A stretch of DNA of 64,000 nt from Pseudomaricurvus alkylphenolicus (GTDB lineage: Bacteria; Pseudomonadota; Gammaproteobacteria; Pseudomonadales; Cellvibrionaceae). The translations under genes and the position numbers were made by a program. Location: the NCBI RefSeq assembly GCF_011683955.1, contig NZ_JAAQPI010000001.1:806001-870000 (forward strand). The letters are read 5' to 3'. Below the pieces are notes generated by a model. It was not told the origin of the DNA. It made no database searches and saw only the letters and a program-made list of their open reading frames with translations. Positions 45,080 through 57,118 of this stretch are shown here, piece by piece; position 1 is the stretch's first letter; every line of letters starts with the position of its first letter.

Positions 45080-46213
45080 ATGACAGACCTGCAAACAGCC
45101 GCCAACATATACTGGCGCCTGATCAATGAACAAGCGGTCTCCAGGGACGAGTTTATTTTCTGCATCCGACTGGTATGGGGAGATCATAAGGGTAGCCCCT
45201 TTTACTCCTTGACCGCTGATCTGCCCGACACCATCATTTCACCCATTGGGCAACAACCCAAGCTCAGCCCTGTGACCGCTCGCTGGGAGGAACACTTCAC
45301 CCGACCCGGAAACATTTCTGATGAGCAGGCCATTCACTTTGTCACCGAACTCTATGAAGGGCTGGAGGATGTCGAGCCACAACTCAAGCGGCGGGTTGCC
45401 CCGGGCATCACCCGTTGTACCCGTGGCACGGTCAGCGATTACGTGACCCGCCGTCCCAACGTCAAATTGGGCTGGACGCTGCAACTGACCACCGAAGGCA
45501 GTGGCCACTACAACTGTATCCGCTCGCAGGTGGTTAGCCGGCCGGGGGATCTGATCTTGTTATCCCCGGATGCACTCTATGACTATCACCGCGACGACAG
45601 CTGCGAAACCTGGGAGCACCAATGGGTGTACTTTGTGCTGGAGGACAGTTGGCTGGATTTGGTGCAGTGGCCAGAGGTTGGACCCAACATTTATCGGGCC
45701 AGTTGTTCCGGGGCAGACTATGAAAAGCTGAAAGTTCTGTTCGACGATATTCTCACGGCCAGATATGAAGATGTGGATTTATCGGAACGACTTTGCAGCA
45801 ATCTGTTTGAGCAGATGCTGATCCGATGCCAGCAGTTCGCCCCTCGCAGTGGGCCCGCGAATGTGGATAAACGTATTCTCCAGGCGAAGGATTATATTAC
45901 CCGCAACTTTAATAAATCGTTTTCCGTTAACTCGCTGGCCAGTGAGGTAGGGCTCTCTGTCGCCCGCCTGTCTTCACTGTTTAAGAAACATACCGGCACC
46001 ACCATCGTCCGCTGGCGCGACGAACACCGCATGACACGGGCGTCTCAGCTGTTAACGCAAACCGATCAACCCGTCAGTCGTATCGCCGATATGGTGGGGT
46101 ATAACGATGCGTTGTATTTTTCCCGTTGTTTTAACCAGCATACGGGGTGCAGCCCGATGGAGTACAGGAACAAGAAACGGCTGCCACATATGCAGGAACA
46201 ACTGAGTGACTAG
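45080..46213 (+). CDS. AraC-family regulator with cupin sensor domain
   Basis: A 377-residue regulator from the ATG at 45080; an upstream in-frame TTG at 45062 is possible. Residues about 130-215 form a cupin-like sugar-sensing domain ([20 protein letters not shown], then [19 protein letters not shown]), as in AraC itself. The C-terminal 100 residues carry the double helix-turn-helix ([20 protein letters not shown] and [20 protein letters not shown]). The preceding 120 residues are an unassigned N-terminal extension. It is divergent from the GH3-sulfatase operon and most likely activates it with a released sugar as ligand. Its stop shares the tetranucleotide CTAG with the convergent chemoreceptor gene. 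Confidence 0.9.
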
Positions 46214-48666
46214 AACTTTCCTGTCGCCTTCAGGTGCCGGGCATAACCGCTGTCGCTGTGGTGTATATGGTTGATAAGCCAGTCATTGAGTTGTTTCAGT
46301 TCTTTGTCGATTTCTCTCTTGCTTCCCACCTCGATTCGTTTTTGATGTTCACGTAATTCGGTAATCAGTTTGCGGTGTTCGGATTTGTGCTCATCGGAGT
46401 TAGGGTAGTCGTAGGAATCAAACAGGTTTTCTTCCCAACCAAAGTGAATTTCTGTATATCGAATTAAGCTATCCAGCGATTTGGCAATGGCGGCGCTGTC
46501 TCGCCCTTTAGCCGACATGATGTGTACCTTGTTCATCATATCCACCATGGTTTTATGTTGCCGATCGGATTCGTCAATGCCCAGTTCGTAGTTGCTGTTC
46601 CATTGCAGCAGATGCAGGACCCTTTCCTCTTTGTTAAACAGATCTCGGTCGACATGGTAGTCAGAAATAATCAGGCGCATCTCCTTGGCCATCGCCGACA
46701 ATCTGGAACCGCTTTCCGCCAATACCTGTGAACTGCGTGAGGCGTCATCCGATGCGCCGGCAATGGTAACAACACTGCGAGCAATCTCTTCCGAAGCATA
46801 GGACTGTTCCTCGGCACCGGAAGCAATCTGCAAGCTCATGTTGCTGATTTCGGAAACCGACTGGGCAATGGTAGACAAAGCCTGGCCGGCGGCCTGGGAA
46901 TTCTCCACCGCTTGTGCCGTGTGATCACTACTGGCGCCCATGGCGGCGGAAACTTCATTGATACCACCCTGTATCAGCTCGATCATGTTTTGTATTTCCA
47001 GGGTGGAGTCTTGGGTGCGTGAGGCCAATGTGCGAACCTCATCGGCGACAACCGCAAAACCGCGCCCTTGCTCGCCTGCCCGCGCGGCCTCAATGGCCGC
47101 ATTCAAAGCGAGTAAATTGGTCTGCTCGGCAATACCCCGAATCACATCCAGTATGCCGGTAATATTGCCGCTGTTTTCTTTCAGCGTTTCAACCACGGCA
47201 ACCACTTCGTTGACATTGTTTGCCAGTGTATTGATCGCGGTAATGGTTTGCTGAACCACTTGGCTTCCGTTGTCGGCCTCACTGGTCGCTTGCTGCGCCG
47301 ATACCGACGCCACTTCGGTGTTTCTGGCCACCTCTCTGACCGATTCGGTCATTTCGGTAACCGCACTCGAAGCCTGAGAAAGCTCCTGGGCCTGCACCGA
47401 CATTCCAGCGGCGGAGTTTGTACTCTCGCTGGCGATTTCTTCCGCTACCCGGGAGATCTCCAGACTGGAGTCTTTAATGGACATGATGGAGCGGCGAATG
47501 CTGTCGGAAATCTCGTTAAAACTCTCTGCAATGGTCTTGAGTTCGTCGCGGGTGTTCAGGGCGATGTGGGTATCAAGCTTGCCATCACAGATGTCGTCCG
47601 CCGATGACTGTACCTGAATCAGATTCTTTTTGATGGCCAGGTAAATGCCAACAAAGATATAAATCAGAACCAGGGCAACTATGAACAACATGGCAAAATA
47701 GAAATTGATGTTGTCACGAGCCTTCTGTGCCTGATCGGCCATGCGCTGTTCCAGTGCGGGCTGAATGCTGTCGAACAATATCAACAGCGAACCGATGGCG
47801 TCACTACCGGTAGAAAAGAAACGAGTAGAATCCATATTGGCACTGCTCGCCTGCACGATTTCAGTGTTGGCGAGTTTGAGGAAACCATCGAGTTGACGTT
47901 CTGCATACTCGTAAGGTTCACGCAGCCTTGCCTCCAATTGGGGTGAAGCCGCAAACAGGTAGCGCATATCCTTCTTCAGCTTAAGTGCGGTACGCTGATC
48001 TGCCAGGCTGGCGATTTTGAGCTTGTTGTCTGTGGTCAATTCATCGGCTGCCAGTACCCCTGAGCCCTTGCCCCTCAGTACTCCCAGTGCTTCGACCTGA
48101 TTGGGCAGGGTACTGAGCAAGCTGTTGATCATGTAGCTGTTTACCGGGTCGGGGTCTTGCCTCATGCGTCCCGTACGACCGATGGTGTCCATCAGATCGA
48201 TAATGTCAGCAATCAGATGGGTGTAGCGGGCAAAAACATCAGCGGCTGGACGGTTGAATGCTGTGGCGGTAATAGAACCCCAACGATCCTGAAGTTCCAG
48301 GGGCAGACCCTGTGTGTTGAGAGCGTCGCCCAACTCCCGATCCACTTGAAGCAGACTGTCAAAGTCTTCGTTGACCATCTGGCGGCGAGACTGAATTTTA
48401 GCCTCGAATTGACTGGCACCGTTCAGGTAGGCGTTGGTCATTCCGCGCGTCTGGGCAACATGCTCAACCAGATTTCTCAAGGGGACGATATAACGCGAAG
48501 CGCTGATTTCATAGTCGGTGCGTTCAATCACCTGTGATCTGTCGGCGGCAAGAACCATAAAAAAGTAAGCCAGAGCCACTGCTGATAACAGAAACACCAA
48601 TGCAAATTTCTGTTTGAAACTCAACCGGTTGGACAGATGAATAGCTGGTGTGAATAGCGCTTGCAT
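46210..48666 (-). CDS. Methyl-accepting chemotaxis protein with C-terminal hemerythrin domain
   Basis: An 818-residue chemoreceptor. In order: N-terminal membrane helix, a long periplasmic helical sensor (to about residue 330), a second membrane helix ([20 protein letters not shown]), a HAMP domain, a signalling coiled coil whose hairpin tip carries [20 protein letters not shown], and a C-terminal bacteriohemerythrin domain. The di-iron ligands are visible: RQHK, HFGWEE (HxxxE), HKSEH (HxxxH) and HIHHSD (HxxxxD). Hemerythrin binds O2 reversibly, so the protein may sense oxygen or redox as well as a periplasmic ligand. The ATG at 48666 is preferred over a GTG at 48702. Confidence 0.92.
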
Positions 48667-48832
48667 TGGGCAATCCCCTACACTGAAGGGGTACAGACCC
48701 ACCCCTTATTAGGTAGACGCAGTCCAGCTTGACCGCGACTTTGCCCAGTATAAGCGAGAGCTTCGATCACCGGAGAAGAGAGCCCTGATGTCTTGATCCA
48801 GGTCAATTTGCAGGCACGAGACCGTGTCCTGT

Positions 48833-51163
48833 CTAGCGCCGGTAATCCACATAGATGGGTGAGGACCATGCCCGCTGCCCCAACGGTGAGAGACAGTCGT
48901 CATTGGCGGAGGTACGATAATCCCCATAGCAGGGTTCGGTGGAAACCGCCTGGCCCTGTTGGTCAAAACTGGCCCTGAGATTGCCGCCGTTAACCGTGCC
49001 CACCGGTTCTTCGATCGCCCGCACATAGTACAAGGCGGATCTCTGCGAGTCTGTGAAGCTCTCGTCGGTGAATTCCACCGTGCAACCGCTTTGATCGGGT
49101 TCGCACTCGAACACCTGCCATTGATCCTCGATCAGCGGTGGTACCGATTCTTCTGCGCTCATCTGCGGCCGAATTCTGACCACCTCAATGCGATCGATTC
49201 GGTACCGTTGGTCGGAGGGATTATAACACTCTCCATCCGCCATTCTCTTCAAGCGGCGTTTGCTCAACGCAGTTACCACATAATCCGGGCACCCGGGGAG
49301 CTGTTTAAATGAGCCTTTGGCGCTTACCCGGAAACGAGGGTTTTGTGCAAGGCTTGTCTCACTACCCATGGGTAGCGTACCTTGTTCGGGAGCGTTCAAG
49401 AGATCGAACCATAGCAGGATGCGGTGGCCGCTGGTTCCGTACACCTCGCGGCGTTTTAGTGCGTCCCAAACCGCACTGCGGCTGCGGCCTTCTGCGTGCA
49501 CTGCGGCAATACCGCCGGAGCTCATAAACGATGTCGTACGTTCAAATTCCGACGCAAAAATGCCAGCCTTCAGTGGCTCGATTTCTTCGGGAGACAGTGA
49601 ATGAGCACCCGCGGCCGGCAGATCGGCGGTGGCTCTGTTCACGCTGGCCCAAAAGGGATCTGCAACGCCGTTGGAGTCGGTGGTGGTCAAACGCTGGCTC
49701 TGCTTAAAACCGTGCCCCGCCCTCGCTGAGTGAGTGTCAGTGGAGGCGACAAAACCCCAGCGGAATCTGCGCGGGCTTTGCGGCTCGGTAAAGTCCTGCA
49801 GCGCCAGACCATATTGCGCTGACTTGCGGGGTCGATAATTAAAGGCCGGCAGGAAAACATCACGCGCCTGGCCGGCGTCCAGCCACTCTTCCGGCTGACT
49901 GTCAGGCACGGTCATAAATCCATGGATGGTATCAACCTGAACAAAGTTGTGGCGGGCCCGTACCGCGCGCTGTTGGCATTCTTCTGCAGTCTGCCCTTCA
50001 GCCAGACAGCGCTGCTGAATGATATTGCCCGCCTGCCAACACGACGGCAAGTAATTTTCCTGTGGCTCAGGGCAGGTCCACTGTCCCTGCTCATCGCGTT
50101 TGCGCGATGCAAAATCCCGGAACACCTCGGAGTTGCCATGACCGGAGTAAACCTCGATCAGTTGGGTCGCTTGCGCTGAGAGTTTGCTCTTATGCAGTTG
50201 ATGACGCCAGGTGGCACCGGGCGGGGTGTAAAAGCCCCAACTGGTGCCATGGGGTATCAACAGGTGGTCAAAGCCCCATTGTCTCAATCGACCGATAAGT
50301 TCATCGGGTGTGCTGACAGATTCGAAACAGTCCAGAGGCAGCTCGGTGGTGGGCGCACCCGGGTCACAGGGTGGGGTCGCGGCCATTAGCTCAACCCATT
50401 TGTTGTAAGCGGCATAGTAACCTTGGCGACGAGGGTCCAACAGTTTCAGAATGCCGGGTTGCTTGGATTCCTCCGATCGGGTGGCGATGGTTGACACACC
50501 GGCCCCACCGGCAGCGATGGGTCTTTTCGGCAACTGATCGAAAGCATCGCTTTGGAACAGCACATTGTGGTGGCCGTAGTGTTTGTCCGCGGTGGCTCCG
50601 ACCTGCGTCCACTCCCAACCGATAAACGCCATCAGGTCCGGGGAATCTCCGGCCTGGCGATTGCACTGCTGTACGGATTCGATGGATTCCCGCCACTGCT
50701 GAGGTGTAAAACTCTCTGCGTGATCGGTCAGAAAGTAAAAGTCCAATTGAGAGACAAAGCGTGCGTAGTCGCAGGCGTAGGCGGGCGGAAACGCTCCCAC
50801 GGCGCCGTGAATGACCGGCAGGCTGTACATAAAGGCGTCGGCGGAATTGGTGGTGTGGACGTGAGTGTCACCAAAGAGAATTTGCTTGGCGGAGTCTTCG
50901 GTCAGTTGGTTACCGGCCGTGTTTTCTGCCGTCGTTTCCTTAAAACGGGATTCATCGCGGGCATTGATCACTGCTGCCGGCAGACGCTGTTGCGTCACCT
51001 GTTGAGGCGTCAACGGCGTCTCACGCCACCACTGTTCCGGGTCGGGAGAGTAGGCAGGCAGCACCCGATAGAAACTGTCCGGCGCTTTTCCGGAAAATAA
51101 CCAGACTGCCATGACGAGCAACAATAACATTGCCAGTACAACTGCGCCGCGAGTTTTTGTCAT
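48833..51163 (-). CDS. DUF3604 protein (PHP-like putative metallohydrolase), paralogue A
   Basis: A 776-residue protein with an N-terminal membrane anchor (VVLAMLLLLVMAVWLF) and a large periplasmic domain of the DUF3604 family. PHP-type metal-site signatures are visible: FGDTHVHTT (Asp99, His101, His103), TDHAES (Asp147, His148), HHN, IPHGTSWG, YSGHG and STDTH. Several conserved cysteines (ENYLPSCWQAG, then RCL and EECQQRA) suggest disulfides. The chosen ATG at 51163 lies 13 bases after the HupE-like stop. It is a clear paralogue of the protein at 52825-55140 and last in the five-gene operon. The reaction is unknown; phosphoester or related hydrolysis is inferred from the fold. Confidence 0.85.
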   Translation of the reverse strand: MTKTRGAVVLAMLLLLVMAVWLFSGKAPDSFYRVLPAYSPDPEQWWRETPLTPQQVTQQRLPAAVINARDESRFKETTAENTAGNQLTEDSAKQILFGDTHVHTTNSADAFMYSLPVIHGAVGAFPPAYACDYARFVSQLDFYFLTDHAESFTPQQWRESIESVQQCNRQAGDSPDLMAFIGWEWTQVGATADKHYGHHNVLFQSDAFDQLPKRPIAAGGAGVSTIATRSEESKQPGILKLLDPRRQGYYAAYNKWVELMAATPPCDPGAPTTELPLDCFESVSTPDELIGRLRQWGFDHLLIPHGTSWGFYTPPGATWRHQLHKSKLSAQATQLIEVYSGHGNSEVFRDFASRKRDEQGQWTCPEPQENYLPSCWQAGNIIQQRCLAEGQTAEECQQRAVRARHNFVQVDTIHGFMTVPDSQPEEWLDAGQARDVFLPAFNYRPRKSAQYGLALQDFTEPQSPRRFRWGFVASTDTHSARAGHGFKQSQRLTTTDSNGVADPFWASVNRATADLPAAGAHSLSPEEIEPLKAGIFASEFERTTSFMSSGGIAAVHAEGRSRSAVWDALKRREVYGTSGHRILLWFDLLNAPEQGTLPMGSETSLAQNPRFRVSAKGSFKQLPGCPDYVVTALSKRRLKRMADGECYNPSDQRYRIDRIEVVRIRPQMSAEESVPPLIEDQWQVFECEPDQSGCTVEFTDESFTDSQRSALYYVRAIEEPVGTVNGGNLRASFDQQGQAVSTEPCYGDYRTSANDDCLSPLGQRAWSSPIYVDYRR

Positions 51164-51176
51164 AAGAATACCATCG

Positions 51177-52406
51177 TTAAACCAGAGAGAAGCTGCGAGC
51201 AACGAACCAGTAGCAGCCGGTACCCACCAGTATTGCCGACAGCATTTGTGGGGCCATCTCTGTGACACTGAGAGACGCCACCTGCTTCAGCCAGTACCGC
51301 AGGCCCCACAGAGCCGACACAATCAATAACTGCCCGATTTCCACACCGATGTTAAAGCCGGCCAACGCTGGAACCAGATGCTGTTGTGGCAGCCCTACCT
51401 CGCTGAGCACGCCGGCGAAGCCAAACCCATGGATCAAACCAAAGCCGAGGGTCAGCGCCGGACGCAGCTTGATCGCCGTGTGCTTGTTTTCACAGAGCGG
51501 AAGGTGGGCCAGAACAAACATTGTCAGGCCCAGGGTCGTCAACAGAGGCAGTCCCCTGCCCCAGCCAAGGGAAACGACACCCAACAGAACTAATCCCGCG
51601 GCGAGCCAATAGCTGGTGACTTGGCTCGACCGGTGACCCGCGACAATATTTTCCAGCGCGACCAGGGCGATGGTAAAACCAATCAGGGCTTCCACCACCG
51701 ATGCTTCTGGATTGACGATGCCTAAAGTTGCCAGGCCCAGGGTAATGCTGTGCCCGACAGTAAAACCAGTGACCATCCAGATCAGTTCTTTCAGGCTGCG
51801 AAGTAACAACATTAACGCCAGCAGAAAGACAATGTGATCCACCCCCAAAAAGATATGCTCCATACCCAGCGTAATGTACTGAGCAAAGGCCCGATACAAG
51901 GAGTCAACGGGGTTATCGCTAACGCCAATAGCGTGACTTCGACGACTTTCCGTGAAGAGGTATTGCTGGCTGTTTCCCGGTTGTTTCGCAACATTGGCGT
52001 AGTGAACGTGGGATGCCGCTACGGGAAAAAAGCTGTGGATTTCCAGCCTCAGGCCCTGTTCGGTCGGACAGGAAAAGGACCATTTCGCAGTCAGATAGCC
52101 GGGCTCTCCGGTTTGAACTTCAGGTTTGCCGGCGGCCTCACAGGGCTGTTCACCCGCAGCAACCAACAGGGTGCGTTGCAAGTGAGTCGCCAGTAATTCG
52201 TTCAAAGATGTCAGATTATTCTCAACTGGTGGCAGGCGGGTGACCTCTCTCGCCTTCACCGTAAACACCATCTCCAACTGTTGAGCATCCCATTGCCAGT
52301 GGGAAAAAGACTGGCTGCGGTTATGCGCCTGAGCACCCATGGCAAAACCAAGCAGGGCGATAAATGCCAGCAGGGAAGCCCCGGGCGAGCGTAGAGGATT
52401 GTTCAT
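51177..52406 (-). CDS. HupE/UreJ-like membrane protein with N-terminal periplasmic domain
   Basis: A 409-residue protein. The signal segment (FIALLGFAMGAQA) is followed by a periplasmic domain of about 150 residues, then six or seven membrane helices with the HupE/UreJ motifs: HIFLGVDHIVFLLAL, FTVGHSITL, PLCENKH and LIHGFGFAGVL. The histidine and aspartate pattern in membrane helices resembles HupE nickel/cobalt permeases, although many family members have no proven substrate. The start overlaps the preceding stop as ATGA. Placed between two putative metallohydrolase genes, it may supply their metal ion; that is inference. Confidence 0.85.
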   Translation of the reverse strand: MNNPLRSPGASLLAFIALLGFAMGAQAHNRSQSFSHWQWDAQQLEMVFTVKAREVTRLPPVENNLTSLNELLATHLQRTLLVAAGEQPCEAAGKPEVQTGEPGYLTAKWSFSCPTEQGLRLEIHSFFPVAASHVHYANVAKQPGNSQQYLFTESRRSHAIGVSDNPVDSLYRAFAQYITLGMEHIFLGVDHIVFLLALMLLLRSLKELIWMVTGFTVGHSITLGLATLGIVNPEASVVEALIGFTIALVALENIVAGHRSSQVTSYWLAAGLVLLGVVSLGWGRGLPLLTTLGLTMFVLAHLPLCENKHTAIKLRPALTLGFGLIHGFGFAGVLSEVGLPQQHLVPALAGFNIGVEIGQLLIVSALWGLRYWLKQVASLSVTEMAPQMLSAILVGTGCYWFVARSFSLV

Positions 52407-52828
52407 CTGTTCACCCATTCGATGCTGGCTTCGCTCCGGAGCTGCTCGATATAGTCACGCAACGCCTCATCCCGTCCCCCCAGTGCAACGCCGTCCATCT
52501 GGGATTTCACAATCTGGGCGCGCAGTTCTCGGTTTTTATTCAGTAACCCCGAGGACAAACCGTATTGGACCAGCAGCTCTTCCTCGATCAACCGTCTCAG
52601 CACCAGTTCTTTATCGGCATCGGTGATGGCATCGCGCTTTTCGCTCGCCAACATATTTAGAGCCCGTTCGAACTCTGCGCGCTCAATATCAGTGTCGTTG
52701 ACTTGCGCCACCAGGTACTTGGGCAGTGGTTGCCAGTTCAACCACTGCAGCGCGCTGAGCAGACCCAGTAGCGAACCCACGCCTGCCCCCAGGGCCATCA
52801 GCATCATGGCTCGACCTTGTGTAGTCAT
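52403..52828 (-). CDS. Membrane-anchored SurA-N-like chaperone fragment/protein
   Basis: A 141-residue protein. One N-terminal membrane helix (MLMALGAGVGSLLGLLSAL) is followed by a helical region resembling the SurA/PpiC N-terminal chaperone domain (VAQVNDTDIERAEFERALNM, then VLRRLIEEELLVQYGL). The rotamase domain is missing. It sits fourth from the right in the five-gene operon and overlaps both neighbours as ATGA, so it is a deliberate short protein and not a decayed gene. It may assist folding of the exported DUF3604 proteins together with the longer isomerase at 55147. Confidence 0.75.
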   Translation of the reverse strand: MTTQGRAMMLMALGAGVGSLLGLLSALQWLNWQPLPKYLVAQVNDTDIERAEFERALNMLASEKRDAITDADKELVLRRLIEEELLVQYGLSSGLLNKNRELRAQIVKSQMDGVALGGRDEALRDYIEQLRSEASIEWVNR

Positions 52829-55140
52829 GACGGAGGACCTTTGCGGCTGATGTTAACGAAGATAGGCGATGACCAGGCCCGCTGGCCTTTCATTGTTGTG
52901 CAGTCGTCGTCTCGGGGTGTTCTGTGATCACCAAAACAGGGATTGATTTTATCCACCTGGCCTTGGCTGTTGCGGCTCGCTCGCAGGTTGTCCCCATTGA
53001 CCGTCGGGCTGGGTTCTTCGATGGCGCGCACGTAATAGACCGCATCTCGATCCGCACTCAGAAAATCATCATCGCTGAATTCAACACTGCATGTTGATGA
53101 GTTCGAATCGCAGGGGAATACCTTCCAGGTATCCTCCACCAGTTTCTGCACGGCTTCTCCAGCATAAGCCTGTGGCCGAATACGGATCACCTCAATGCGA
53201 TCGACCCGATAGCGCTCATCACCAGGGTTATAACACTCCCCCTGAGCCAGCTTTTGCAGTTTTTTGGCTTCGAGGTTTTGCAACACATAGTCAGGACAAC
53301 CGGGCAGTTGTTTGAGAGAACCCACCGCCGTCACCCGAAAACGGGGGTTCTTGGCCATGGATACCTGGCTACCCATCGGCAGGCTGTCATCACCCGCGTT
53401 AACCAGATCGAACCAGAGCAGCAATCGGTGACCACTGGTTCCGTATACTTCGCGGCGTTTAAGCGCATCCCAGATAGCGCTGCGGTCTCGACCTTCCGCG
53501 TGTACCGCTACCACGCCGCCGGCCGTCAGAAAAGACATTTTGCGCTCCTGCTCGGACACCGAGTCGCCGCTGTATCCTTCCAGCTTAAGCAATGAACGTG
53601 AATGAGGCTCCGGCGCCTCCTTGCCCCTGCCATAGATCAACCACTGCCAAAAGGGTGTTTTACCGCCGCGCATGCCCGCATCGCTGGTGCCGATGCGCGG
53701 AAACTGCTTAAACCCATTACCCGGTCGCGCAAAGTGGGTATCGCTGGACCCGATAAATCCCCAGGTAAAGCGCAAGGGGTTTTCGGGGTCATCAAAATTG
53801 GTCAACGCCAGACCATACTGGGCGGATTTTTTGGCAACGTAGTTAAAAGCCGGCAAGAACACATCCCGTGCCTGGCCGGCATCGAGCCATTCCTCAACAC
53901 TGGTGCCCGGTACACTCAGCCATCCGGAGGTATTCTCCACTTCCAGATAATGTTCTCTGGCCAGTTCGGCCCGGGTCTGGCATTGCGCGTCCGATTCACC
54001 GGCGAGCAGACAGCGGTTTTTAATGATTTCGCCGGCCTGCCAACAGCTGGGCAGATAGTTTTCCTGGGGCGGTGGGCAAAAGAGGTTGCCCTGTTGATCC
54101 CAATCCCGCGCCCGATAATCCCGGTAAACTTCGGAGCTGCCGTGGCCGGAGTACACTTCGATCAATCGCCCCTTATCGGCGTCGTAGTGTTCTGCGGTTA
54201 ACTGATGCTCCCAACTTGCACCCGGCGGCGTATAGATACCCCAGCTGGAACCGTGAGGTACCACCAGAGTATCAAACCCCCATTGGTCGAGCTTTTGATA
54301 AAGTTCGCCTGTCGTCGCGGCGGTCTCGTAGCATAAATCAGGCAGCCGAGGGCTGGGAACATCCAGCGCGCAGTCGGGAATGTCTTTCAGTTCCTGCAGA
54401 TAACGGCTCAGGCCTTGGTAATAGGTTTGGTTGCCACCGTCGAGCCACTTCAGTGCCCCCACCATGCCTTTGGCGCCGGCGGATGATCTCAGACCACGAG
54501 TCCCCAAGCCGGCCGCTCCAATCGGGCGTGTCGGCAGCCTCGAAGCATCAACATCGCGATACAGAATATTGTGATGGCCAAAGTGTTCATCCGGATTATT
54601 GCCGATCTGCGACCACTCAAAGCCGATAAACGCCACCAGATCCGGGTTGGCCGGATCGCCAGACAGGGTATTGCACAGGCGCACAGCTTCCTGGGCATCG
54701 CGCCAGCGTTGCGGCGTATAGCTCTCCGCGTGGTCAGTAAGAAAGAAGAAATCCAGCTGCGACACATAGCGGGCGTAGTCGCAGGCCGCCGCGGGCGGAT
54801 AAGCGCCTTTGCTGCCGTTCATGATGGGCAAGGAGAACATAAAAGCGTCCAGCGACCAGGTGGTGTGCACGTGAGTGTCGCCGAACAGAATCTGCTTGCC
54901 CGTTTCGGCGTGCAGGGTGTCGGCGTCCATCTGTCGCTGCCGTCGATCGGTAATTTCCTCAACAGGCGTAACTACCGCAACGGGTTCACCGGCGTCCAGT
55001 GGATCCTGTTGATAGTAGCCTTGCGGATCCGGTATGCGTACCCAGGAGAAATAAACCGCGACCAGGAGCACAATCAACACAAGGCCAATCCAACCACCGA
55101 TCTTCCACCACGGATAGCCACCCGTTTTTTTGCTTGTCAT
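52825..55140 (-). CDS. DUF3604 protein (PHP-like putative metallohydrolase), paralogue B
   Basis: A 771-residue paralogue of the protein at 48833-51163, with an N-terminal anchor (WIGLVLIVLLVAVYFSWV) and the same periplasmic domain. Metal-site signatures: FGDTHVHTT (Asp88, His90, His92), TDHAES (Asp136, His137), FGHHN, VPHGSSWGIYTPPGASW, YSGHGSSEVY and SSDTHFARPGNGFK. The shared segments ENYLPSCWQAG and DAGQARDVFLPAFNY are identical in both copies. It is the second gene of the operon, 6 bases after the isomerase, with an ATGA overlap to the next. Both copies keep all visible ligands, so both are probably active, perhaps on different substrates. Confidence 0.85.
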   Translation of the reverse strand: MTSKKTGGYPWWKIGGWIGLVLIVLLVAVYFSWVRIPDPQGYYQQDPLDAGEPVAVVTPVEEITDRRQRQMDADTLHAETGKQILFGDTHVHTTWSLDAFMFSLPIMNGSKGAYPPAAACDYARYVSQLDFFFLTDHAESYTPQRWRDAQEAVRLCNTLSGDPANPDLVAFIGFEWSQIGNNPDEHFGHHNILYRDVDASRLPTRPIGAAGLGTRGLRSSAGAKGMVGALKWLDGGNQTYYQGLSRYLQELKDIPDCALDVPSPRLPDLCYETAATTGELYQKLDQWGFDTLVVPHGSSWGIYTPPGASWEHQLTAEHYDADKGRLIEVYSGHGSSEVYRDYRARDWDQQGNLFCPPPQENYLPSCWQAGEIIKNRCLLAGESDAQCQTRAELAREHYLEVENTSGWLSVPGTSVEEWLDAGQARDVFLPAFNYVAKKSAQYGLALTNFDDPENPLRFTWGFIGSSDTHFARPGNGFKQFPRIGTSDAGMRGGKTPFWQWLIYGRGKEAPEPHSRSLLKLEGYSGDSVSEQERKMSFLTAGGVVAVHAEGRDRSAIWDALKRREVYGTSGHRLLLWFDLVNAGDDSLPMGSQVSMAKNPRFRVTAVGSLKQLPGCPDYVLQNLEAKKLQKLAQGECYNPGDERYRVDRIEVIRIRPQAYAGEAVQKLVEDTWKVFPCDSNSSTCSVEFSDDDFLSADRDAVYYVRAIEEPSPTVNGDNLRASRNSQGQVDKINPCFGDHRTPRDDDCTTMKGQRAWSSPIFVNISRKGPPS

Positions 55141-55146
55141 AGGTGC

Positions 55147-55983
55147 TTACTTCCCGGATTCAAAATGGTTTATGTTGATATGTGCGGAGGCCCACAGGGC
55201 ATCGAGCTTGCTGGCCAACGCCTGATCCCGACCCCGGCGCTGGTACTCTGACCTTACTTGAGCCTGAATACTGTCGAAGGCCGGGAGAACCACCGGCGTT
55301 TTCTGATGAAGTGACAGCAAGACATACTGCTCGCCGTGAACAATCGGTGGAGATATTTCTCCCGGGTTCATGGTTTTTGCCTGCTGCGCCAGTGTCGGGC
55401 CGATCAGGTGATGCAGGCGACTGATGGGTAAGGGACCTTGCGGGATCAGTAAAAAGCGGGCGGCGTTAATGTGCAGGCTCTCGCCAGTGGCCAACCGTTC
55501 ACGCGCGGCTGCCACTTCGGGGTAGGAGTCAAAAGCGTAGGCCGACAACCTCAGAGTACCGCTTTTCTCAAACACTGAAGGGTGTTGATCGAAATAGGAG
55601 CGCAGCTCCTTCTCGGTCATCGGACGTTCCAGGAATGCCGCCAGGATATCGTCAATAGCGGCCTGCACCAGCAGTTTGCGCAGCCCCGGGTCATGGTGGA
55701 ACAATCGCAAACGCTCCGCCCTCTGAACCATCAGGGCTTCATCCACCATCAGCTGCAATAAGCGTTGGCGAGCACTGTCGTTCAGCGGTTGAGCGCTGCC
55801 TGCGCGCAGGAGCGATTGCGTCTGTTCCAGATCCTCTTGAGTAATCGGCTGCCGATTCACCCAAACCAATACGTCATCAACGCCTGTTTTGATACCGGGT
55901 CCCAGCAACGCCAGCCCCAGCGCTATCGTGGCCAGAACCAACCGAATGCCTTCTTTGTAGCCAAAAGATGAGTTCAAGGACAT
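55147..55983 (-). CDS. Parvulin/SurA-like peptidyl-prolyl isomerase, membrane-anchored
   Basis: A 278-residue protein from the ATG at 55983. An N-terminal hydrophobic helix (LVLATIALGLALLGPGI) is followed by a SurA-like N-domain (VLVWVNRQPITQEDLEQTQS, LLQLMVDEALMVQRAERL) and a PpiC-type region (GTLRLSAYAFDS, SRLHHLIGP, MNPGEISPPIVHGEQYVLL). It is the first gene of the five-gene operon. The gap to the divergent AraC gene is only 58 bases. A frame extends further upstream to 56151 but overlaps the regulator, so I rejected it. Its likely role is chaperoning periplasmic partners encoded downstream. Confidence 0.8.
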   Translation of the reverse strand: MSLNSSFGYKEGIRLVLATIALGLALLGPGIKTGVDDVLVWVNRQPITQEDLEQTQSLLRAGSAQPLNDSARQRLLQLMVDEALMVQRAERLRLFHHDPGLRKLLVQAAIDDILAAFLERPMTEKELRSYFDQHPSVFEKSGTLRLSAYAFDSYPEVAAARERLATGESLHINAARFLLIPQGPLPISRLHHLIGPTLAQQAKTMNPGEISPPIVHGEQYVLLSLHQKTPVVLPAFDSIQAQVRSEYQRRGRDQALASKLDALWASAHININHFESGK

Positions 55984-56007
55984 AATTGCTGTCGAATTTG
56001 CGCTAGA

Positions 56008-56024
56008 TACCTCAATAATAGGTA
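56008..56024. promoter_or_regulatory. Inverted repeat TACCT-N7-AGGTA in the 58-base divergent promoter
   Basis: Perfect 5-base arms lie at 56008-56012 and 56020-56024 between the isomerase start (55983) and the AraC-type start (56042). With so little space it must overlap one or both promoters and is the natural candidate for the regulator's operator. Confidence 0.5.
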
Positions 56025-56041
56025 AGCTCAGGAGTATTCGA

Positions 56042-57118
56042 ATGTCCAATGCAGACAACGGGATCACAAATGCGGACAGTCTTGTCAGCCAGGGGCTCGC
56101 ATCCATCCCGGCAGTCAAACAGTATCTGCGCCACGCTGAAGCCTTGGGCATCGACTGTCAACCGCTGCTGGACCAGGCTGGCATCTGCGCACAAGACCTC
56201 AACGATAATAATCACTGGATACCGGCGACGGCGCTGGAGAAGCTCCTCTCGATCCTGATCCCGGCCAGCAACGACCCCTGCTTTGGCCTCCACACCGCCC
56301 GCTTTATCTCCATGGATATGTACAATGTGCAGGGCTATATCAACATGAACTGCAGTTCCCTGAGAGAGGTCTGGGGGCAAACGCCCATTTACGAGAAAAT
56401 CGTCGGGGATATGGGGGTCTCCACCCCGGTCTATGGCGAGCAGGTTTCCAGCCTGCGCTGGCATTGCAACTACACAGACCCGCTGGTCCGACGCCATATC
56501 ACCGAAACCATACTGGCCTCCTGGCATCGTTATGTACGGGAGTACCTGCTGCCGGATCAATCGGATAAGGGGCCGATTCAGGTGTGCTTTGTACACAACC
56601 CGCCCGAGACCCCAGAGCTGCTGACGGAATATCAAGACGCGTTCGGCTGTGAAGTGCTGTTTGATCAGCCCTACAACGCCATCAGTATCGATAATGAGCT
56701 GTTGGATCTGCCCATTGCCCAGGCCAATCCCCACCTCTTGGCCTCGCTGCTGGATCACGCCACGCAACTGCTTAGAGAGCTGGACAAAAATCGCAGTTTT
56801 ACCGAACAGGTGAAGAACCTGCTGCGGCTGATGATCACTAAGGAAATCCCCAGGCGGGAGGCCATCGCCGAACAGTTACACATGAACAGTCGCACCCTGC
56901 AGCGTAAACTCGCAGAGGAAGGCAGCAGCTACCAGGCGCTGCTGGATGAATTGCGCCTGGAGATGGCCTGCCACTATCTGTCTAAAACCGACTTGAGTAT
57001 GGAGGTCATCGCCGAAAAGCTGGGATTTGCCGAGACCCGCTCTTTTTATCGGCAGTTTAAAAACCTGTGTGGTGTCACTGCCGGAGCCTATCGAAAAGAG
57101 CGGCGTTTGTCGTCTTAG
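56042..57118 (+). CDS. AraC-family regulator (OruR/ArgR type) of the DUF3604 operon
   Basis: A 358-residue regulator. An N-terminal ligand domain of about 230 residues (HAEALGIDCQPLLDQAGI at 30-50, CFGLHTARFISMDMYNVQGY) is followed by the C-terminal double helix-turn-helix (RREAIAEQLHMNSRTLQRKL and SMEVIAEKLGFAETRSFYRQ). AGGAG precedes the ATG. It is divergent from the isomerase/DUF3604 operon and 51 bases upstream of an MFS transporter on the same strand. It probably controls both. The ligand is unknown; relatives respond to ornithine, fatty acids and other small molecules. Confidence 0.9.
   Translation: MSNADNGITNADSLVSQGLASIPAVKQYLRHAEALGIDCQPLLDQAGICAQDLNDNNHWIPATALEKLLSILIPASNDPCFGLHTARFISMDMYNVQGYINMNCSSLREVWGQTPIYEKIVGDMGVSTPVYGEQVSSLRWHCNYTDPLVRRHITETILASWHRYVREYLLPDQSDKGPIQVCFVHNPPETPELLTEYQDAFGCEVLFDQPYNAISIDNELLDLPIAQANPHLLASLLDHATQLLRELDKNRSFTEQVKNLLRLMITKEIPRREAIAEQLHMNSRTLQRKLAEEGSSYQALLDELRLEMACHYLSKTDLSMEVIAEKLGFAETRSFYRQFKNLCGVTAGAYRKERRLSS

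Follow-up and report, generated by a model that had tools for sequence, protein, structure and literature searches.

The five-gene operon

The subject of this study is a set of five contiguous genes in the gammaproteobacterium Pseudomaricurvus alkylphenolicus (assembly GCF_011683955.1, 8.9 Mb in 70 contigs). The window, i.e. the whole stretch of DNA analysed, covers 64,000 nt (NZ_JAAQPI010000001.1, positions 806,001–870,000), and the genes lie on its minus strand at positions 48833–55983. In the order of transcription they encode a PpiC protein, a first DUF3604 protein (DUF3604-B), a small SurA_N protein, a protein of the HupE_UreJ_2 family (below, HupE) and a second DUF3604 protein (DUF3604-A). 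Their longest frames span 55147–56151, 52825–55140, 52403–52828, 51177–52418 and 48833–51268; when the internal ATGs at 55983, 52406 and 51163 are taken as starts, the gaps between genes are 6, −4, −4 and 13 bases (Table 1). The original prediction, made from the letters of the DNA, had described a coupled set of this composition and spacing. The set is real: the gaps are reproduced with these starts and Pfam confirms the families.

PpiC exceeds the cut-off of PF13145 (Rotamase_2, 47.2 bits) and falls just below that of SurA_N_3 (25.6 versus 27.2 bits). The small SurA_N protein exceeds the cut-off of PF13624 (SurA_N_3, 30.3 bits), and a peptidyl-prolyl isomerase (PPIase) domain is not among its listed matches. 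Both DUF3604 proteins pass PF12228 (DUF3604-B, 100.5 bits; DUF3604-A, 90.9 bits; cut-off 20.4), with the profile matched in parts only, and HupE passes PF13795 by a wide margin (151.4 versus 24.5 bits).

Table 1. The operon and its divergent neighbour, in window coordinates
Feature	Coordinates	Strand	Remarks
PpiC	55147..55983 (longest frame from 56151)	-	SurA_N and Rotamase_2 (PPIase); hydrophobic N-terminus; counterparts in the same place in loci L014 and L016 (see text)
DUF3604-B	52825..55140	-	long-subfamily PHP-like protein, 771 aa; predicted N-terminal membrane anchor; 14 cysteines
SurA_N protein	52403..52828	-	141 aa; without PPIase domain; 4-base overlap with the upstream gene
HupE_UreJ_2 protein	51177..52406 (longest frame from 52418)	-	N-terminal outer (Ang-1-like) domain; codon of predicted mature N-terminal His at 52325-52323
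DUF3604-A	48833..51163 (longest frame from GTG 51268)	-	second long-subfamily PHP-like protein, 776 aa from ATG 51163
Divergent intergenic region between operon and AraC gene	55984..56041	.	58 bases
GliR-like AraC regulator	56042..57118	+	divergent from the operon; NF050186, 364.6 bits

A recurrent cassette and its enlarged form

DUF3604, PpiC and HupE genes form a recurrent cassette, seen in many related bacteria. A sample of 66 genomes of the order, in whose richest members only 16 candidates were scored so that gene counts are lower bounds, holds DUF3604 in 22 genomes and HupE_UreJ_2 in 38. Frames of at least 300 aa make up 50 of the 66 HupE genes, and 36 of these 50 belong to DUF3604-bearing genomes. 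Of the 36, 21 have a DUF3604 gene no more than 5 kb away, where gene numbers and genome sizes would predict 0.57; the 16 shorter HupE genes include no such case. Reading of 55 HupE loci gave 27 with a DUF3604 gene at 5 kb or less, eight with PpiC only and 20 with neither. Each of the 27 also carries, on the same strand and no more than 300 bases away, a PpiC/SurA_N gene, including two (L115 and the first HupE of L013) where DUF3604 stands 3.5–4.3 kb off with other genes between. In the order sample, PpiC is found at 21 of 21 DUF3604-near HupE loci versus seven of the 20 not-near loci that were fetched, out of 29. The prediction had named in advance a lack of co-conservation in other genomes as what would count against it; the neighbourhood survey finds the set co-conserved and the three-gene cassette recurrent.

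The host genome itself carries the plain cassette twice, on contigs C4 and C24. On C4 (L013:1256–7702), a TonB receptor–PpiC–HupE–sulfatase locus adjoins the canonical DUF3604–PpiC–HupE cassette, so that a PpiC–HupE pair accompanies another exported hydrolase there. Two loci from genomes of the class (L092 and L093) show a long DUF3604 gene divergent from a single PpiC–HupE pair. PpiC–HupE pairs without DUF3604 occur at L121, where the neighbours look acyl-CoA-dehydrogenase-like, and at L128, amid what looks like an acyl-CoA-type cluster, both neighbourhoods being judged from N-terminal sequence alone. Among the neighbour proteins of DUF3604–HupE loci, 80 of the 130 listed were scanned and gave four AraC-type regulators, three short-chain dehydrogenases, three TonB receptors, three GMC oxidases and two sulfatases; these counts are small, and the neighbour survey does not fix the substrate.

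Set against this background, the operon of the window looks like an enlarged cassette, with two hydrolases, two chaperones and one permease. Its five-gene order is more than chance: the genes are complete and in identical order in a Haliea metagenome-assembled genome (MAG; L014) and in a proteobacterial MAG (L016), and pieces of the same order recur in a Halioglobus MAG (G491), split over three contigs (DUF3604–SurA_N–HupE on L142, DUF3604–SurA_N–HupE–DUF3604-A on L169 and DUF3604-A–AraC–FAD (flavin adenine dinucleotide) oxidase on L168). PpiC is not seen on these three contigs. As L142 and L169 carry different copies, the G491 MAG may hold two operons or mixed strains. The relatives of DUF3604-B in these three genomes come from a pattern-based scan with a single query and one genome per species, so that three is a lower bound.

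A 46-row tree places DUF3604-A and DUF3604-B in a separate long subfamily, within which each forms a clade with its counterparts from other genomes (support 100/99 and 100/100). Members of this subfamily are rare. Strong matches (E < 1e-60) were obtained in five of 97 relatives including the host (G000, G063, G068, G090 and G013), and across the phylum in one of 398 genomes, the host, with at most two candidates scored per genome. DUF3604-B has no match in the plasmid collection searched. Some genomes hold many long copies, such as G090, where pieces are spread over nine contigs, and G489, with at least eight genes. A second long pair exists in the host on contig C3 (L009:5983–10712); its genes are divergent, show 45% identity to DUF3604-B and have an AraC gene close by, with no PpiC or HupE match beside them.

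PHP-type motifs and putative export signals of DUF3604

The PHP superfamily adopts a (beta/alpha)7 barrel fold with bound metal, for which the residues of its conserved motifs act as ligands. DUF3604 carries, in order, the predicted metal-ligand motifs of PHP metallohydrolases. In all 34 aligned DUF3604 proteins H90, H92, D98, D136, H137, E175, H189, H296, E328, E337, D467 and H469 (DUF3604-B numbering) are invariant, and the resulting order HxH–DH–E–H–H–E–DxH is, when compared by eye, that of the PHP proteins 2yb1 and 7ug9. D98 occupies what we take to be the position of the third His of Escherichia coli YcdX. Most of the ligands first proposed are among these residues, namely those of THVHT (H90/H92), TDHAES (D136/H137), PHG (H296) and DTH (D467/H469) and the second His of HHN (H189); the His of GHG is not invariant, and D98, E175, E328 and E337 were missing from that list.

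A PHP-type metal site in DUF3604 is thus supported by motif order and, weakly, by profiles. The CehA/McbA profile NF038032 matches 15 of the 34 proteins at E ≤ 0.01, and an hhalign comparison of DUF3604 with CehA/McbA metallohydrolases gives E 4e-5 and a probability of 70% over 65 columns of the TSG region. DUF3604 shares the ordered HxH, DH, E, H, H, E and DxH with the PHP phosphoesterases of solved structure (2yb1, 7ug9 and 9etk) and differs from them in being predicted to be exported, in its length of ∼600–800 aa, in large insertions and in an extra C-terminal part. At the sequence level it has no match to PDB chains at E ≤ 1, and PDB searches with DUF3604-B, a canonical DUF3604, HupE and profiles A3, A4 and A2 return no relative, the weak rows looking like chance.

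DUF3604-A and DUF3604-B each have one strongly hydrophobic N-terminal stretch, which is replaced by a lipobox-like pattern in eight of the 34 aligned proteins. DUF3604-B has 14 cysteines, each of them invariant in an eight-row alignment, in line with the conserved cysteines noticed at the outset; this is not a family-wide trait, as six of 34 members have no cysteine. The hydrophobic N-termini, the lipoboxes of relatives and the cysteine content fit predicted membrane-tethered, periplasmic proteins, and the anchor together with the cysteines would fit a need for folding help.

The HupE permease and its outer domain

After the predicted signal-peptide cut, judged by eye, the first residue is His in 50 and Asp in five of 55 aligned HupE proteins; in alignment A2 the pair A31–H32 is invariant. 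The outer domain has two cysteines, conserved in 46 and 48 of the 55 proteins, and H188, D194, H195, H223, H330, E360 and Q363 occur in all 55. These features recall the anglerase–HupE permeases described in 2025 (Nat Commun, October 2025; PMC12537917). According to the passages available from that paper, Ang-1-HupE/UreJ-2 proteins combine a signal peptide, an N-terminal His domain and a PF13795 membrane domain with conserved His, as HupE does here, and an Ang-1 domain binds Cu (dissociation constant 73.6 nM) and Ni (220 nM). Membership of Ang-1 also implies an Ig-like (immunoglobulin-like) beta-sandwich with Cu/Ni bound through His1. An AlphaFold model of HupE built from four sequences is poor (mean predicted local distance difference test (pLDDT) 52.7); several of the best Foldseek rows obtained with it are Ig-like, all at E 0.03 or above, and the best 50 do not include 9GCE.

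The genomic company differs. In the parts of PMC12537917 at hand, the neighbours of the permeases are DUF4198, Indigoidine A-like and PfkB proteins and unknowns, whereas the recurrent neighbours here are PpiC and a PHP-like hydrolase. The text of that paper contains no occurrence of ‘PpiC’, and the paper is not among the full-text matches for DUF3604. From this linkage, it is tempting to propose that HupE may serve the PHP sites of DUF3604.

The GliR-like regulator and neighbouring lipid genes

The AraC-type gene divergent from the operon has GliR (NF050186) as its best family and scores below the equivalog cut-off of 570 bits; the protein is therefore named GliR-like, not GliR. It shows 50–53% identity to its counterparts in L014, L016 and L168, and when the AraC protein of the L014 operon is compared with host genes the window AraC is found at 375 bits, the next host gene at 134. 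A GliR-like gene adjoins the operon in four of four operon-bearing genomes, and an FAD oxidase gene comes next in three of the four. In L014 the order is GMC oxidase–five genes–GliR-like–FAD oxidase–GlpD–start of a kinase, in L016 it is GMC–DUF3604–five genes–GliR-like–FAD oxidase–start of GlpD, and in G491 it is DUF3604-A–GliR-like–FAD oxidase. In the host, genes for an FAD oxidase, GlpD, a kinase, a major facilitator superfamily (MFS) protein and a GMC oxidase lie together ∼56 kb from the operon (C11:790.8–798.8 kb); the GMC oxidase and the FAD oxidase are 60–62% and 62–64% identical to their L014/L016 counterparts.

In Pseudomonas aeruginosa, GliR (PA3027) is reported to activate a divergent FAD oxidase–GlpD–kinase operon and a phospholipase C gene, and deletion mutants had no growth phenotype in the conditions tested (PMC8151288, in the passages available). 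L014 and, in part, L016 share with this regulon the GliR-like AraC gene, the divergent FAD oxidase, GlpD and the kinase. They differ from it in the DUF3604/HupE/PpiC operon beside the GliR-like gene, of which the available passages of PMC8151288 make no mention. Since the GliR-like regulator probably couples the operon to lipid genes, hydrolysis of glycerolipid-type esters or phosphoesters is a likely job of the operon.

As for signals around the operon, the promoter scan finds no sigma-70-like site on the minus strand of the 58-base gap. One site in all was returned, against a shuffle mean of 3.0, and the terminator scan gave 10 against a mean of 7.3 (standard deviation 2.5). Guanine–cytosine content varies between 0.478 and 0.565 along the window and peaks at the operon. 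Directly downstream, on the minus strand at 46210–48702, a methyl-accepting chemotaxis protein with a C-terminal hemerythrin domain is encoded.

Interpretation and alternatives

From gene order, conservation, motifs and linkage, we infer a periplasmic site, chaperone and metal-handling roles, a mode of regulation and a substrate class. The operon probably encodes membrane-tethered periplasmic PHP hydrolases with chaperones of their own and a metal-handling permease, likely acting on lipids and under GliR-like control. DUF3604-A and DUF3604-B, two putative metallohydrolases of the PHP superfamily, would be exported by Sec and tethered to the membrane. PpiC and the PPIase-less SurA_N protein would hold or fold these cysteine-rich hydrolases after Sec export. 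HupE would be an anglerase-type permease, whose N-terminal histidine domain may capture a transition metal and whose membrane part may pass it on, securing the supply of the PHP sites. The adjacent GliR-like regulator probably switches the operon on together with lipid-processing genes, and the substrates would probably be ester or phosphoester bonds of glycerolipid-type compounds, hydrolysed before uptake.

A more specific version, which we consider unlikely as a whole, takes the operon for the periplasmic front end of lipid scavenging. The DUF3604 pair would act on glycerol(ether) lipids by removing acyl or head groups, and breakdown of the alkylglycerol would fall to the linked kinase together with the GlpD-like enzyme and the FAD oxidase, which resembles alkylglycerone-phosphate synthase. 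The GMC oxidase would oxidize the freed long-chain alcohol, and HupE with its anglerase domain would supply metal to the exported PHP enzymes. If true, this would amount to a metalation system devoted to periplasmic PHP hydrolases.

Several observations weigh against the view of tethered hydrolases with a dedicated permease. In the DNA at hand, 15 of 18 long-DUF3604 loci have no HupE match, many of the contigs being 3–8 kb long, and the seven not-near HupE genes that keep PpiC indicate that the PpiC–HupE pair is not exclusive to DUF3604. Structure gives the proposed metal site no support: the AlphaFold model of DUF3604, from eight sequences, is poor (mean pLDDT 44.1) and has no fold match at E ≤ 0.001 in a Foldseek search, and neither does the HupE model. 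The one Ang-1 domain tested preferred Cu/Ni, with Zn, Mn, Fe and Co modestly destabilizing it, and the authors propose that the metal is taken into the cell rather than handed to a periplasmic enzyme (PMC12537917, passages available). This preference speaks against HupE serving PHP sites, unless the present branch differs. On the regulatory side, four of the 12 genomes tested that lack the full operon also have the FAD oxidase, and the GliR motifs (PMC8151288) are not convincingly found in the 58-base gap or in the L014/L016 flanks. The best motif A in the gap has four mismatches in 15 positions and motif B is absent there; in L016 a motif B with a single mismatch stands close to the PpiC start, within the upstream DUF3604 gene. 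None of these hits is counted as evidence.

The chief alternative, somewhat unlikely in our view, is that PpiC–HupE forms a general envelope module for many exported proteins (DUF3604, sulfatases and others), DUF3604 being merely its commonest neighbour without any special metal supply. The eight of 55 HupE loci with PpiC and, as far as the fetched DNA shows, no DUF3604 closer than 5 kb, L121 and L128 with their acyl-CoA-type genes among them, would be expected of such a module, and so would the sulfatase locus on host contig C4. Against it stands the distribution in the order sample, where DUF3604 is near 21 of 28 PpiC-adjacent HupE loci read and near none of 13 PpiC-less ones, the near (21 of 21) and not-near (20 of 29) loci having been fetched as groups.

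It is very unlikely that the operon serves mainly for metal uptake, with HupE importing copper or nickel and DUF3604 acting as a non-catalytic metal- or substrate-binding partner. The reported Cu and Ni affinities of the Ang-1 domain, and the proposal in the passages of PMC12537917 that such domains feed the permease, would agree with uptake. Invariance of the PHP motif residues in 34 of 34 proteins, the acidic ones included, suits catalysis, and two large DUF3604 paralogues are kept side by side.

Least probable is that DUF3604-A and DUF3604-B belong to the CehA/McbA family, as hydrolases of carbamates or aryl esters. This label was followed because the best listed match of McbA, a periplasmic carbaryl hydrolase (PMC11302072, in part), is a Haliea rubra protein (table of PMC5141477, in part), and L014 is itself a Haliea MAG. 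Besides the profile matches mentioned above, the two groups share a PHP-like HxH, a later TSG region and, as reported for McbA, a periplasmic location (NF038032; PMC8292978, PMC5141477 and PMC11302072, in the passages available). The host has five CehA/McbA-family proteins above the NF038032 cut-off of 80 bits (L150–L154, on C45 and C1), none in the window. DUF3604-B reaches 25.7 bits (E 7.1e-6) and DUF3604-A has no listed match. The DxHxH motif stands at residues 274–335 in four of the five host proteins, with ∼270–330 residues preceding HxH, and was not found in the fifth; it stands between residues 30 and 171 in 40 of 43 DUF3604 proteins, the other three comprising one incomplete row and two that deviate. 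The published carbaryl-hydrolase motif (PMC5141477) occurs in none of the 43 DUF3604 proteins and in none of the five host CehA-type proteins either, so that the motif cannot settle the matter by itself. Membership is rejected on score and architecture, and less firmly on the motif, a separation that rests on the NF038032 profile, the published motif and the position of HxH.

Relation to the literature and significance

The families are known; their combination, its double form and the link to GliR appear undescribed within the literature searched. DUF3604 occurs there in one paper, as a table entry, most subscription papers lying outside the coverage. No description joining DUF3604, PpiC and HupE was found in the same literature, where the slash form HupE/UreJ is not searchable and the spaced form ‘HupE UreJ’ gave none among the 10 rows listed. 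The idea of a periplasmic metallohydrolase system with folding helpers and a membrane partner, with which the analysis began, is partly supported, and it gains an adjacent GliR-like regulator and a lipid-gene context on which the original prediction was silent.

DUF3604 is common in the order, being present in a third of the genomes sampled (22 of 66), and Pfam assigns it no function. Its link to a PpiC chaperone and an anglerase–HupE permease gives both families a testable partner and sets uptake in general against service to one exported enzyme. A concrete class of substrates is suggested by the association with a GliR-like regulator and with a glycerolipid module. If the proposed reading is true, the operon would show how an exported metal hydrolase obtains its metal and its fold.

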